Shown piece by piece: positions 474-6,836 of a stretch of 47,496 bases of DNA (positions are counted from its first letter, which is position 1; each line of letters opens with the position of its first letter). The position numbers and the translations under genes are program-made. This DNA is from Myxococcaceae bacterium. Its GTDB lineage: Bacteria; Myxococcota; Myxococcia; Myxococcales; Myxococcaceae. The notes under the pieces are model-generated. The model was not told where the DNA came from, did no database searches, and saw nothing but the letters and a program-made list of their open reading frames with translations. The DNA lies in NCBI GenBank assembly GCA_025459425.1, contig JALOQF010000008.1, positions 1 through 47,496 on the forward strand, given 5' to 3'.

Positions 474-1550
474 TCAGTGCGAGCCAGCGTACGACGGCTC
501 GATCGCGAGCGTCTCTTTCTTGAGCGCTTCGTCGTCGGGCACGTCGGGCCCGAGCATGTACCAGTCGAGCTTCAAGGTGCGCCCGCTGACGAGCTGCTTC
601 ACCTTCTTCGCCTGCTCGTCTCGCCGGGCCTTCATGTCGTTGCGCAACGAGGCGAGGGCCTTCTTCGACTCGACGTCGGTGGCCTTGCTCATGCGCTCGT
701 CGATCGACGTGAGCTGCCGGTCGAGGTTGGCGAGCAGCTCCTCGTCGCGTGACGCCTCGTTGAGGTCGGTGAAGACGCCCTTCTTGCCAGCGAGGCCCAG
801 CGTCAACACCGCCAGCGCCCGGCCACGATCGCCCGACGCGAGGACGAAGGCGTCGCGCACCCGCTGCGGTGGCGCCGAGCCGCGGTACTCGCCCGACTGC
901 ACCACGAGGTCGACCTTGCCCGACAGCTGCTCGGCGATGGCCATGGCCTCGAGGTAGCCACCCGTCGCCACCACCACGGTGAGATCGCGCGCGGGGAGCT
1001 TCGGCAGCTCGGCCGAGAGCGCCTCGATGGCGTTGAGCGAGGTGACGTTCGGCACGCCGGGTACGTCACCCAGGCCCGAGGTCGCCAGCAGCGCCACCTT
1101 GACGCCCTCGTGCGTGAAGACGAGCGACGTGGGGAAGAGCGGCTTGCCGGTGTCCTTCGCGCGCAGGCTCGTCGACACCAGCGGCACCTGGGCCTTCTTC
1201 GCCTCGTCGACGAGGAACGGCACGCCGCCCAGCAGATCCTTCTGGCCGACCGCGAGGGCCTTCGTGCCCATGGCGCCCGAGGCCTTCAAGATGAACCGCG
1301 CCCGCTCGAGCTCGGCCGGCGCGTTGCTGCCGGGGGCACGGAACAAGGCGTTTCCGGCGTCGAGGAGCACCTGGCTCCCGCCGATCTGCTTCAGCTTCGT
1401 CTTGCGCCTGGCCAGACCGCCAGTCGGGTTCGCGCGTCACCCACAGGGGGCGACTTCGCCCCCACCATCTCCCTGGAAGACGAAGGTGACCGTCTTCGGC
1501 GCGGCCAGCACCGACGAGGCGAACAGCGCGGCGAGCACGAGTGACTTCAC
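474..1550 (-). CDS. Putative selenoprotein, exported metallophosphatase-like (UGA = Sec at codon 38)
   Basis: The frame starts at GTG 1550, which overlaps the stop of the upstream TPR gene (GTGA), with GGGAGG six bases before it. Residues 1-17 form a signal peptide ending SSVLAA. The frame then meets UGA at 1439-1437 and stays open for 320 more codons, giving 358 residues in all. The segment reads APCG-U-RANPTGGLARR. Related UshA-like proteins, as I recall them, carry PCGC followed by NP.GGLARR, so UGA stands where Cys is expected. A hairpin with loop GGUCUG follows at +14 to +29 after UGA. LLDAGNALF resembles the LLDAGD motif of metallophosphatases, but the usual Asp-x-His metal site is degenerate. 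The last 90 residues look like a coiled coil. A sequencing error or pseudogene is the main alternative. Initiation inside the frame would give only a signal-less product starting at or after residue 61. Confidence 0.72.
1408..1426 (-). promoter_or_regulatory. Candidate bacterial SECIS hairpin
   Basis: In the mRNA, 13 nt after the UGA, CUGGC pairs with GCCAG around the loop GGUCUG; past one A-G mismatch, two more pairs (CG with CG) extend it. The loop GGUC starts 19 nt after UGA, the position and sequence I remember for E. coli fdhF, where SelB binds GGUC. The loop bases also encode the conserved Gly-Gly-Leu of the protein, so the matching arms are the more telling part. Confidence 0.6.
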
Positions 1551-2338
1551 TTCTTGCCTCCCTTGCCCGCGGGCTTCTTCTCGAGATCGGCCAGGCGCTG
1601 TCTGGCGAGCTTCGCGCTCTCGCTCTTCGGGTGCTGCTTGAGCAGCTCGTTCAAGGCCAGCTTCGCCTCGTCCATCATCTTGAGCTCCTTGAAGCAGTCC
1701 GACGAGCGCAGGTAGGCGGTGGGGGCGCTCTTCGTCTTCGGGTGCTCCTGCAGCACCTTGCCGTACTCGTAGAGGGCCTCGCGGCACTTCGTCTCGAGGA
1801 AGAGGATCTCGCCCAGCGCGAAGTGGGCCTCACCCACCTGCTCGTCACGCGGCCACTTCTTGAGGAACTCGGCGAAGAGCTTGCGGGCCACGTCGTTCTC
1901 ACCGGCCTTCGCCTTCTCCTCCGCGAGCGTGAAGAAGGCCTTCGGGTCGTCGGGCTTCTTGAGCTCTTCCTTCTTCGGCTCGTCGGGCTTCGTCGTGGTC
2001 GGCGCGGACGCGGCGGTCGCCAGCTTCGCCTCGAGCTCGGCGATCTTGAACTGGTAGCTCTCCATCTGCCCGCGCAGGGTGGCCACGTCTTGAATGGCGT
2101 TGTCGACCTTCACGCCGATGTTGGCGCCAGTGGTGCGCGAGGCCTGGTCGAGCTGATCGAGCGCCGTCTTCAGCTGGGCGGTGGCCTCGTCGAGCCGGGC
2201 CTGGGTCTCGGCGAGCGCGCTCTTCAGCTTCTTGTTCTCGTCGCCGAGCGAGTCGACGCGGCTCTCGAGGAGCTGGCCCCGATCGGCCGGGAAGAAGCAG
2301 CCGGTGATGGCGAAGGTGAGCACGAGGACGCGACGCAT
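1547..2338 (-). CDS. TPR-repeat outer-membrane lipoprotein, CpoB/YbgF-like
   Basis: 263 residues. The start ATG at 2338 gives a short lipoprotein signal with lipobox ITGC and lipid cysteine at residue 14. Residues 20-120 are a charged coiled coil of the kind that trimerises YbgF/CpoB. A Thr/Lys/Pro linker follows, and then three TPR-like repeats (FFTLAEEKAKAG, AHFALGEI, AYLRSSDCF). In E. coli CpoB links the Tol-Pal system to PBP1B and peptidoglycan; no tol or pal genes are next to it here, so the role is inferred from architecture only. Its stop overlaps the start of the selenoprotein candidate by GTGA, which suggests a shared envelope job or at least shared expression. Confidence 0.75.
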   Translation of the reverse strand: MRRVLVLTFAITGCFFPADRGQLLESRVDSLGDENKKLKSALAETQARLDEATAQLKTALDQLDQASRTTGANIGVKVDNAIQDVATLRGQMESYQFKIAELEAKLATAASAPTTTKPDEPKKEELKKPDDPKAFFTLAEEKAKAGENDVARKLFAEFLKKWPRDEQVGEAHFALGEILFLETKCREALYEYGKVLQEHPKTKSAPTAYLRSSDCFKELKMMDEAKLALNELLKQHPKSESAKLARQRLADLEKKPAGKGGKK

Positions 2339-2590: not shown

Positions 2591-5500
2591 TCAGCCCTTC
2601 GACCGCCGCCGGCGCAGCGCCTGGCCCAGCACCGCCGCGGCCAGGAGCGAGACGCCCTCGAGGCCCGACGTGCAGCCACACCCGGGCTTCGTCGCCTCGA
2701 CCACCGGCGGCGCGTCGAGCCCGGCCTCGCGCACCAGCACCTCGACGCGCACCGGGTCGGAGTCGAACTGCCCATCGTTCGCCACCACCTCGAGCATCAG
2801 CGTCGCGTCGGCGTCGACGAAGGGCGCCTCGAGCGCGAGCGCGTCGGTGTCGGCGCCCGCCAGCTTCGCGGTCGGGCCGTCGACCTGCGTCCACCGGAAA
2901 GTGACGACGCGGTCGGGCGCAGCGCGGGCCACGGCCTGGATGCGGGCGATCTCACCTTCCTGCACCTCGACCCGCATCGGCGCCGTCACCAGCGGCCGCG
3001 AGGCCGAGTCGAGCACCGTCACCGTCATGCGCTGGGGCATCGACTCGATGGAGAGGTCGGTCGCCACCACGTCGAACGCGATCACCGTGTCGGTGTCGAC
3101 GAGCGGCGCGTTGAAGACGCCGTTCAGCACCTCGACCTGCGGGCCCTCGCGCTGGACGAAGAGCACCGACGCCGGGTCTCCATCGGGGTCGACCGCCGTC
3201 GCCACCAGCGTCACCGCGTCACCCTCACGAACGGTCTGGTTGGGGCCCACCGTCAGCGTCGGGGCACGATTGCCCGAGCAGGTGTTCGGGTCGGCCGCGA
3301 CCGAGGCGAAGGGCAGGTTGCGCAGGCCGGTGAAGGCGATGTCGTCGACTTCCCAGCCCTTGTTGGCCGCCGCGTCGTCGGAGCCGATGCGGAAGCGCAC
3401 GCGCACCGTCTGCCCGGCGTACTGCGTGCCGAGGTCGAGCGTCTCGGGGTTGAACGTCGGGTAGTTCGGGCTCTTGCCCACGAAGGCCCGGCGGCCGCGC
3501 AGCGGGTTCGAGCTCTGCTGGGGAATGGCGCCGCCGTAGCCGGGCATCGCTGCCATGCCGATGTCCGTCCACGTGCGGCCGTCGACCGACAGCTCGACGG
3601 CAGCTCCGTCGTAGAACGTCGTCATGTCCTGCTCGAACTCGTAGCGGTGCTTGAACGTCAGCACGAACGGGCCGGAGCCGACGTCGAGCGGCGGCGAGAT
3701 GAGGTACGTGTCGGCGGGAGACGCCGGGTTCGGGCCGAACCACCAGTGCACCGTGGCGCTCGACTGGGCGATGCGCCAGTCGCTGCCGGTGTTGCCATTG
3801 GGGTTGTTCGCCACCGTCCAGCGCGACATCGGCGCTTCGACGTCGTCGACGGCCGAGCTGTCGGGCTTCAAGTTCGAGTTGAGCCGCGCGCGGAAGTCAC
3901 GCACCACCGGGCCAGGCACCGCCAGCGACGAGTCGTTCACCTCGACCCGAATCTGCCCGGCCACGAAGCCGCGCGTGCCCTTGAGCGTCACCGGCAGCGA
4001 CACGGTGGCCGAGCCGAAGGGCGCCAGCGCTTGCACTGGAACCGTGGCGCCCTGCGGGAACGAGAGCCCCGTGGTGGCCGTCGACACCGCGACGGTCGAG
4101 TTCGACAGCATGCCCACGCCGACGTTCTTCACCGTCACCTTGAGCAGCCCCACCTCGTCGGTGTCGAGCGTGCCGTCCATGTCGCAGCTGGTGGAGGAGT
4201 CGTCGATGGTGACGTCGGTGATGGCGATGGCGTTGCCGACGACGAAGCTCTCGACGGCGGGGCGGTTGTCGGGCGCGTCACGATCGGGCGCGACGGCCTG
4301 CATGCCGAGGCCGCGGCGGGCGAAGGCCGCCCAGAGGAGCGCGAAGTCAGCCGGGTCGCGGGCCACGGCCGCCGCGAGAATGGCGTCGCGCGCCTCGACG
4401 AACGTGGGCATCACCGGCGTGAGTTTGTAGCCGCCCACGAGGTACCGCATCATGCGGTCCTGCGCCTGGTCGAAGGTGAGGCGCTGGCTGTCGCGCAAGA
4501 GCGCCACGTAGCACTCCCACAACATCGACGCCCACACCTCGCCCGTCTGGTGCACCTGGTTGTTGAGCGAGCCGTCGCGGCCGAACGCCGTCGGCGGCCC
4601 GGCGGGGAGCGGGACACCGCGCTGGATGTGCTGGAACGTCAGCGCGTTCTTCGCGAAGTCGACCGAGTACGGCAGGCGGCGCACGCCGAAGTAGTGGCCG
4701 TTCGACGACGTCGCCGCCGTCGTGTACCCGCCCACCGGCCACGTGCCCGTCCAGTTCGCGTTCGACGGCACGTTGAGGTCGTCGGCCTTCACCATCATCA
4801 GGAGCGCGTGGAAGTCCGACCAGCCCTCGCCCATGCCGACGCTCTGCTGCGACGACAGGCCGTTGCCATCGCCGATGAGGCGGTTCGAGATGTAGTGGCC
4901 CCACTCGTGCGCGACGATGGCGTTGTCGAGAGTGCCGTCGCGGTCGGTCGTCGAGGTGCGGAAGAGCGTCACCATCGGCGGCGTCGAAGCCGAGATGGCT
5001 CCGCGCAGCGTCATGCCGCCGGTGCGGGTGACGCTCATCGCCGGAATGGTGGTGTTCGGCATCGGCGTGCCCACGAGGTCGGGCGGCCGCGACGACATCT
5101 GGATGTCGGCGATGATGACGCCCACCGCGCCGTTCATCTGCGCGAGCTGCACCTTCTGCACGAAGGTGCAGTTGCCGCGGTCGATGAGCGCGATCTTCCC
5201 GGCCACCGGCGTCGTGAAGTTCGCCTGGCAGGCGTCGTGGATCGACCCGTTCATGCCCGATGGATCGCCGTCGTCGACCAGCACCAGCTCGCCGGTGACG
5301 TTGTACTGCTGCGGGCCGAAGCTCGCGCCGTTCGAGGTGAGGGTGGTGCCGTTGAGCGTGAGGCGCTCCGACGAGGTGCCGTCGAAGATGTACATCTGCA
5401 TGCGGGGCCGCGCGCCGTCGCTGGGCGTCGACATGTTGGCGTTGCTGCGGCCCGAGTTGTCCTGCGCCTCGGAGTTGATGGGGTCGTTCTCACGCCCGCC

Positions 5501-6763
5501 GCGGCCGTAGTTGCTGACCTGCGCGTTGCCCGCCCGCTCGTCGAAGCCCTTGTCGTAGTACCAGTCGTGGAAGAAGTTGACGTTGTAGAAGAGCTGCGTG
5601 GTCGCGGCCATGCGCTGCTCGGGGTTCACGTCGGGGTTCTGGGTGACGTCGTAGAGGCGATCGAAGACGCCGGCGTCGGTCATCGTCGCCGCGAGGTCGC
5701 CCATGCCGAAGCCGTTGGGCCGCACGATGTCGGCGTAGGCGAAGGTGTTGTTGCCCTCGGTGCGCGTGGCGTTCGCCGGCAGCCAGGGGTCCATGGTGCT
5801 GATGGGCCCGAAGTCGCGGCTGACGAGCTCCTGCGGCACGAAAGCAGGCTGGAAGCCGTTGGGCGTCCCGGCGGGGTGCGGCGTGGGCGAGTTGCCCGAG
5901 GGTCCGTCGTACGGCAGGCCCAGGCCCGAGGGGTCGGCCCACACCCGGTACTCGGCGTCGGCGGTGAGGTTCTTCTCGTAGAGCACCTCGCCGGAGCGCG
6001 CCGAGACGACGTACGAGAAGTAGCGCGAGTCGGTGTCGCCCTCGTTGAGCTCGACCTCGACGTAGAAGCCCGGCTCGAGGCCCTCGGGGAGCGGGAAGTA
6101 CACCTGGCGCGTGCGCACCGGCGTGGGCTCTCCGCGCAGGCGGTAGAGCTGGTAGCCGTCGCGGTACGAGAGCGCCGACAGCTCCGTCGACTCGACGCCG
6201 CGGCCCGACAGCGCCGTGATGGCCGTCAGCGCCGCGGTCGGCGCCGAGAGGTTGAACGCGCCGAGCGGCTTCGTCTGCGGCGTGAGGTACCCCGAGATGG
6301 CGACGGGCACGAAGTCCTTCGTCATGGCGACCTTCACCTCGTCACGGAAGACCGGAACGCCGCCGACGTCTTGCTGGAAGGTGGCGATGACGGCGCCCTG
6401 GTCGTCGAGGGCGTGCAGGTGAGACAGGCGAGCCTCGGCCCACCGCGCGCGGTCGGCGCGATAGAGTTCGGCGTGCGTGAACAGCGTGCGCCGCGCGACG
6501 TGCTCTGCCGAAAGCCCCATGTCCTTCGGGGTGCGCGCGCCCGCCGGGGGCTGGCCGACCCAGAAGAACGTCGGCACACCGAGCCGGCGCTCCGTCGACG
6601 AGATGAACCCGGCGCCCACGGCTGCGCGCGCCATCGGCGAGAGCTCGATCAGCTCCGGCACGTCACGCGCCTCACCGCGCGAAAGAAACGCGTCGCGGCG
6701 GGGGACCTGCGCGACGGCAGCGCTCGCGCAGAGCGCGGCGACGAGGGTGAAGCGGCGGTTCAT
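2591..6763 (-). CDS. Secreted M36 (fungalysin) metallopeptidase with MYXO-CTERM tail
   Basis: 1390 residues. The signal peptide is residues 1-18 (ATG 6763, GGGAG upstream). An FTP-like propeptide region follows. The catalytic domain has HEWGH at 619-623 and GEGWSD at 645-650, giving the two zinc histidines, the catalytic Glu and the third ligand. A PA insert (about 490-605, with DRGNCTF) lies before the active site. After it come a CARDB-like segment, a jelly-roll domain of the kind seen in immune-inhibitor-A-type proteases, and two Ig/cadherin-like repeats. The end, residues 1359-1390, has GCGC, a hydrophobic stretch and RRRR, which is the MYXO-CTERM surface-anchoring signal processed by myxosortase. 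Predicted role: extracellular, cell-surface proteolysis, fitting a predatory myxobacterium. A divergent gene lies upstream. Confidence 0.93.
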   Translation of the reverse strand: MNRRFTLVAALCASAAVAQVPRRDAFLSRGEARDVPELIELSPMARAAVGAGFISSTERRLGVPTFFWVGQPPAGARTPKDMGLSAEHVARRTLFTHAELYRADRARWAEARLSHLHALDDQGAVIATFQQDVGGVPVFRDEVKVAMTKDFVPVAISGYLTPQTKPLGAFNLSAPTAALTAITALSGRGVESTELSALSYRDGYQLYRLRGEPTPVRTRQVYFPLPEGLEPGFYVEVELNEGDTDSRYFSYVVSARSGEVLYEKNLTADAEYRVWADPSGLGLPYDGPSGNSPTPHPAGTPNGFQPAFVPQELVSRDFGPISTMDPWLPANATRTEGNNTFAYADIVRPNGFGMGDLAATMTDAGVFDRLYDVTQNPDVNPEQRMAATTQLFYNVNFFHDWYYDKGFDERAGNAQVSNYGRGGRENDPINSEAQDNSGRSNANMSTPSDGARPRMQMYIFDGTSSERLTLNGTTLTSNGASFGPQQYNVTGELVLVDDGDPSGMNGSIHDACQANFTTPVAGKIALIDRGNCTFVQKVQLAQMNGAVGVIIADIQMSSRPPDLVGTPMPNTTIPAMSVTRTGGMTLRGAISASTPPMVTLFRTSTTDRDGTLDNAIVAHEWGHYISNRLIGDGNGLSSQQSVGMGEGWSDFHALLMMVKADDLNVPSNANWTGTWPVGGYTTAATSSNGHYFGVRRLPYSVDFAKNALTFQHIQRGVPLPAGPPTAFGRDGSLNNQVHQTGEVWASMLWECYVALLRDSQRLTFDQAQDRMMRYLVGGYKLTPVMPTFVEARDAILAAAVARDPADFALLWAAFARRGLGMQAVAPDRDAPDNRPAVESFVVGNAIAITDVTIDDSSTSCDMDGTLDTDEVGLLKVTVKNVGVGMLSNSTVAVSTATTGLSFPQGATVPVQALAPFGSATVSLPVTLKGTRGFVAGQIRVEVNDSSLAVPGPVVRDFRARLNSNLKPDSSAVDDVEAPMSRWTVANNPNGNTGSDWRIAQSSATVHWWFGPNPASPADTYLISPPLDVGSGPFVLTFKHRYEFEQDMTTFYDGAAVELSVDGRTWTDIGMAAMPGYGGAIPQQSSNPLRGRRAFVGKSPNYPTFNPETLDLGTQYAGQTVRVRFRIGSDDAAANKGWEVDDIAFTGLRNLPFASVAADPNTCSGNRAPTLTVGPNQTVREGDAVTLVATAVDPDGDPASVLFVQREGPQVEVLNGVFNAPLVDTDTVIAFDVVATDLSIESMPQRMTVTVLDSASRPLVTAPMRVEVQEGEIARIQAVARAAPDRVVTFRWTQVDGPTAKLAGADTDALALEAPFVDADATLMLEVVANDGQFDSDPVRVEVLVREAGLDAPPVVEATKPGCGCTSGLEGVSLLAAAVLGQALRRRRSKG

Positions 6764-6807
6764 GGTGGCTCCCAGGCGTGTGACGGTGCCCGACATCGGC
6801 GGCGCGA

Positions 6808-6836
6808 GAAATACCGACACGCACTTCACATTTCAA
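6808..6836 (-). promoter_or_regulatory. Sigma-70-type promoter of the M36 protease gene
   Basis: TTGAAA (6836-6831), a 17-bp spacer and TATTTC (6813-6808) lie about 45 bp before the ATG. This is the least GC-rich stretch of the divergent region. Confidence 0.5.

Follow-up and report, generated by a model that had tools for sequence, protein, structure and literature searches.

A probable UshA-like selenoprotein of Myxococcaceae with a CxU motif, and a possible second recoding element before its UGA codon

Is the in-frame UGA at codon 38 of a gene from a Myxococcaceae bacterium read as selenocysteine (Sec), and what kind of protein would then be made? The gene lies in a stretch of 47,496 nucleotides (the window, meaning the whole stretch that was analysed) from a MAG of 8.4 Mb in 651 contigs that is ~90% complete. 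It occupies 474..1550 on the minus strand, as do all other features given below by coordinates, and would encode a UshA-like short form of 358 residues. The original prediction had given no strand; nothing was found when the region 474-1550 was read on the plus strand.

We found the gene to be laid out as predicted. It begins with a GTG codon (1550..1548) and an N-terminal signal peptide, MKSLVLAALFASSVLAA (1500..1550), and homologues retain the hydrophobic N-terminus. The UGA (1437..1439) lies in the peptide GGEVAPCG-U-RANPTGGLARR, just after the codon for Cys36 (1443..1445), which is invariant in the alignment of homologues and forms the first half of a CxU motif. Another 320 sense codons follow before the TGA stop (476..474). 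The conventional ORF call, also as predicted, begins past the UGA and gives an ORF of 298 amino acids (474..1370). The start is coupled to the gene upstream: the GTGA at 1550..1547 holds both the stop codon of that gene and the GTG start. The upstream gene (1547..2338) encodes a lipoprotein-like TPR protein with a weak TolA-binding-trimerisation (YbgF/CpoB-like) match. Co-transcription of the two genes is likely, and the TolA-binding-like neighbour hints, no more, at a role in the envelope. At 2591..6829 there is a 1412-amino-acid secreted peptidase-like protein whose C-terminus, GCGCTSGLEGVSLLAAAVLGQALRRRR, resembles by eye a MYXO-CTERM sorting tail.

We compared the gene to its homologues. 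When the genome contigs were searched with the one protein, no relatives came up; an alignment-based search gave 50. The protein had a match in 53 of 60 relatives, and the five closest homologues, all from the same genus (56-59% identity), each had one in-frame TGA, as did family homologues down to ~38% identity. Across the phylum Myxococcota, 153 of 195 genomes had a protein match and more than 90 had one in-frame TGA within it, a count taken from the match listing. The position of the TGA was read directly in ~50 distinct sequences, and in these it falls exactly at the PCG-U codon. Among these sequences are some from isolate genomes (Myxococcus xanthus, M. eversor, Archangium violaceum, Hyalangium versicolor and Pyxidicoccus), and this recurrence across many independent genomes excludes a sequencing error. 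At the aligned site the homologues carry either Sec or Cys, and we refer to the two groups as Sec genes and Cys genes. The TGA, a GGC-GGT codon pair and the stem of the downstream hairpin recur across ~45-50 distinct genes of the family, and none of the three is seen in Cys homologues; this is far beyond chance. Some genomes, for example of Pyxidicoccus and Archangium, contain a second, Cys-type paralogue (PCGC, HCGC or DCGC; five loci), and some of these also hold a Sec copy.

The hairpin predicted downstream of the UGA was confirmed in the sequence. It is CTGGC-GGTCTG-GCCAG at 1408..1423 (apical loop at 1418..1413), reaches from +14 to +29 relative to the UGA, and places GGTC at +19..+22. 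The prediction had carried the caveat that GGU CUG also encodes a conserved Gly-Leu. These amino acids would indeed be conserved anyway, but the choice of codon tracks Sec versus Cys and removes the caveat. Among Sec genes sharing this spacing, the second Gly codon, in the loop, is GGT in 47 of 47, although GGT makes up 6% of the Gly codons in the remainder of these genes; it is GGT in none of nine Cys genes, all of which have GGG, GGA or GGC. For the Arg that closes the stem, 42 of the same 47 use AGA or AGG (usage ~4%), and the Cys genes never do. The family sequences are related and are not independent trials, so these counts, and those that follow, give direction and strength and not exact probabilities: a perfect 5-bp stem with GGTC is present in 42 of 45 myxobacterial Sec genes and none of eight Cys genes, compared to 0.8% expected from codon usage. 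Stem pair 45-58 has changed from UA to GC in five sequences, a clear compensatory change. In addition, codons 30-49 have an excess of synonymous conservation relative to the rest of the gene (p = 1.3e-6) that peaks at the codons of this hairpin and of a second one described below.

Folding of the single sequence of the SECIS region was no better than that of shuffles (z = 0.2), so the case for this hairpin rests on conservation and not on energy. An Rfam search had no match at either hairpin. The GGTCT loop is found at the same distance in a Marinimicrobia gene (L101) and a Desulfobulbaceae gene, with the stem, read by eye, shifted by one base; the Chloroflexi members are one codon shorter here and differ at the SECIS. 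These belong to a group of five UshA-like genes with PCGU or SCGU from Marinimicrobia, Chloroflexi and Desulfobulbaceae. Those from Chloroflexi lack a GGTCT loop at +19; instead, G/C runs that follow the UGA form a very stable structure. A third small pairing, GGUU/AACC, which includes the U of the UGA, was mostly compatible with the alignment and was not convincing.

The second hairpin, GGGGGCGA-AG-TCGCCCCC at 1446..1463, lies upstream of the UGA. Its general form in the family is GGGGGCGA-NN-TCGCCCCC, with 8 bp, ending 6 nt before the UGA. All eight pairs are present in 40 of 45 Sec genes, compared to 2.5% expected per gene from codon usage, and in none of eight Cys genes. Over the 27 nt that precede the codon, folding energies average -15.7 kcal/mol in Sec genes and -8.2 kcal/mol in Cys genes. 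It is possible that this hairpin is a second recoding element. It could also be no more than a side effect of the codons preferred for the conserved GGEVAP peptide, an explanation to which we give nearly even standing. High-GC codon usage alone would produce the perfect hairpin in ~2.5% of genes, most of the pairs are invariant and never covary, and the more distant Myxococcota Sec genes keep the GGTCT loop and not the upstream hairpin, indicating that it is a feature of Myxococcaceae and near relatives. However, the perfect hairpin separates Sec genes from Cys genes in the counts above, and the silent sites at the hairpin are among the most conserved of the gene. Covariation, though thin, includes one compensatory change from C-G to A-U (L039), and the Marinimicrobia gene L101 has, at the corresponding position before its UGA, a comparable stem that differs in sequence. 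The 3' arm of the hairpin would be covered by a ribosome whose A site has reached the UGA, so the hairpin could act in pausing before the UGA, or the G-run could act like an internal Shine-Dalgarno sequence; both suggestions are speculative.

What protein does the gene encode? A Pfam search with the protein gave no significant family. The best family was NF041198 (E = 3.9e-44), but the score of 151 bits is below the cut-off of 275, and the match spans profile positions 13-338 of 519 and leaves the C-terminal part unmatched. All 29 aligned relatives match NF041198 as well, the best with E = 4.6e-54, or ~184 bits by extrapolation, which is also below the cut-off. The score to NF049981 (UshA-like Sel family 2) was 30 bits, below its cut-off of 140. 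The family profile matches 5'-nucleotidases, UshA and SoxB in the PDB, and an AlphaFold model (mean pLDDT 89) matches CD73, UshA and SoxB by Foldseek (E ~1e-17 to 1e-14). Three UshA-like proteins from Phycisphaeraceae and Acidobacteria have a CxxC (CRTCP, CQVCP) in place of PCGU.

The prediction had called the protein phosphatase-like. This is valid for the fold and no further, because most of the metal ligands have been lost. Of these ligands the window protein keeps only D28, the site of the first metal ligand of UshA, assigned from the motif pattern with the aid of Chloroflexi relatives that read HTTD or HTND just before it. The Asp-x-His step has become GGG (in GDGGG), DAGD has become DAGN, GNHE has become GQKD (GQKD or GxRD in the family), and the later His ligands are absent. 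The protein ends where the C-terminal nucleotide-binding domain of UshA would begin. The second Asp is still present in some relatives (Anaeromyxobacter, Chloroflexi); that a few more ligands survive in relatives suggests that the ligands were probably lost stepwise. With the ligands and the C-terminal domain gone, it is very unlikely that the window protein is a nucleotidase. A broader alternative, that the selenoprotein still has metal-dependent phosphatase or nucleotidase activity and that its Sec serves a purely structural or regulatory purpose, would fit the UshA/5'-nucleotidase fold, the D28 that is invariant in the alignment and the second Asp of those relatives, but with the GNHE and DAGD motifs altered, the His residues of the catalytic region gone and the C-terminal domain missing, we consider it improbable. 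The protein probably represents a short, non-nucleotidase branch of UshA-like proteins that current models would leave unnamed.

The source genome encodes the machinery needed for Sec: a tRNA-Sec with anticodon TCA (70 bits; gathering 47), selA (571 bits; cut-off 268), selB (324 bits; cut-off 242) and selD (377 bits; cut-off 125). Two relatives have TGC at the codon, and no tRNA-Sec was detectable in either of these genomes. There was one exception, a MAG (87% complete, 900 contigs) with the TGA gene in which tRNA-Sec was not found. The idea that the UGA is a true stop or a sequencing error, with a pseudogene or a protein that starts after the UGA, draws on the conventional ORF call and on the fragmented MAG behind the window, but it is hardly credible given the same-codon TGA in ~50 distinct homologues including isolates, the signal peptide and motif kept before the TGA, the Sec machinery in the source genome, and the Cys in genomes that lack it.

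At three loci, two of them in the TGC genomes, Sec has been replaced by Cys, and the SECIS loop, with GGTCTG changed to GGCTTG or GGGCTG, has decayed along with the upstream hairpin. One genome of the window's genus has tRNA-Sec, and a full-length copy of the selenoprotein gene was not found there, so other selenoproteins may exist in that genome. Three formate dehydrogenase (FDH) loci of relatives each have an in-frame TGA.

These sequence comparisons come close to proving that the UGA at codon 38 specifies Sec, and we hold this reading and the placement in the UshA-like family to be highly probable. This supports the central claim of the original prediction, that an exported protein of UshA/5'-nucleotidase fold carries Sec in a CxU motif and that its gene has a SECIS hairpin. 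The comparisons indicate that SelA, SelB, SelD and tRNA-Sec of the genome decode the UGA as Sec under the direction of the GGUCU-loop hairpin 14-29 nt downstream, and in the myxobacterial clade the extra hairpin directly 5' of the UGA may aid recoding. The protein, presumably exported given its signal peptide, retains in its mature form the N-terminal UshA/5'-nucleotidase/SoxB domain; little is left of the dimetal site, and the C-terminal nucleotide-binding domain is gone. It carries Cys36-Gly-Sec38 on the loop that bears the first metal ligands in UshA. CxU motifs are typical of thiol/selenol redox sites. The function with the best support would be that of a periplasmic CxU selenol/thiol redox protein built on a former phosphatase scaffold and cycling via a selenenylsulfide, and we favour a periplasmic redox role of this kind with modest confidence. 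The full combination, in which a second cis element 6 nt before the UGA works alongside the SECIS and what was a metallophosphatase fold now serves as a metal-free periplasmic CxU selenol redox protein, is a tentative proposal and somewhat doubtful as a whole.

The suggestion that such a selenoprotein would be of a new or seldom noticed type did not hold. The GOS survey of 2008 already counted 76 sequences of UshA-like CxU selenoproteins (PMC2398784); these proteins are in review lists of 2022 and 2026 (PMC9312934, PMC13188914) and have NCBIfam models (NF041198, NF049981). We found no paper in the open-access literature that describes the myxobacterial branch. What is new here is this short branch, with most metal ligands lost, scores below the model cut-offs, and an extra hairpin. 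With its score below these cut-offs, the gene is likely to be annotated as a truncated form that lacks the signal peptide and redox motif. It is in most Myxococcaceae genomes searched, including that of Myxococcus xanthus, a genetically tractable model organism. The clean switches from Sec to Cys, tied to the presence of tRNA-Sec, make a good natural experiment across species, and the upstream hairpin, if functional, would be an additional cis element in bacterial Sec recoding.

The recoding signal resembles that of Escherichia coli fdhF, whose SECIS presents GGUCU in its apical loop, at +19 from the UGA. The myxobacterial gene has the same loop at the same distance, but its stem is shorter (5 bp) and it has the second hairpin before the UGA. 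Among selenoproteins, the closest known system is NF041198 (UshA_like_PCGU; COG0737 UshA-like CxU), with which the window protein shares PCG-U followed by GGLARR, the UshA-type fold, export, and the interchange of Sec and Cys. It differs in that its 151 bits fall short of 275, its match stops at position 338 of 519, and a long helical region and short tail stand in place of the C-terminal nucleotidase domain; in addition, the gene has the upstream hairpin. UshA-like family 2 (NF049981) is related in fold and region, but is listed as CxxU (PMC13188914), and the window protein reaches only 30 of the 140 bits required. E. coli UshA, the CD73 5'-nucleotidase and SoxB share the fold and sequence similarity in the N-terminal domain. 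Relative to these enzymes, the window protein is without the metal ligands and the C-terminal domain, and has gained the CxU motif.
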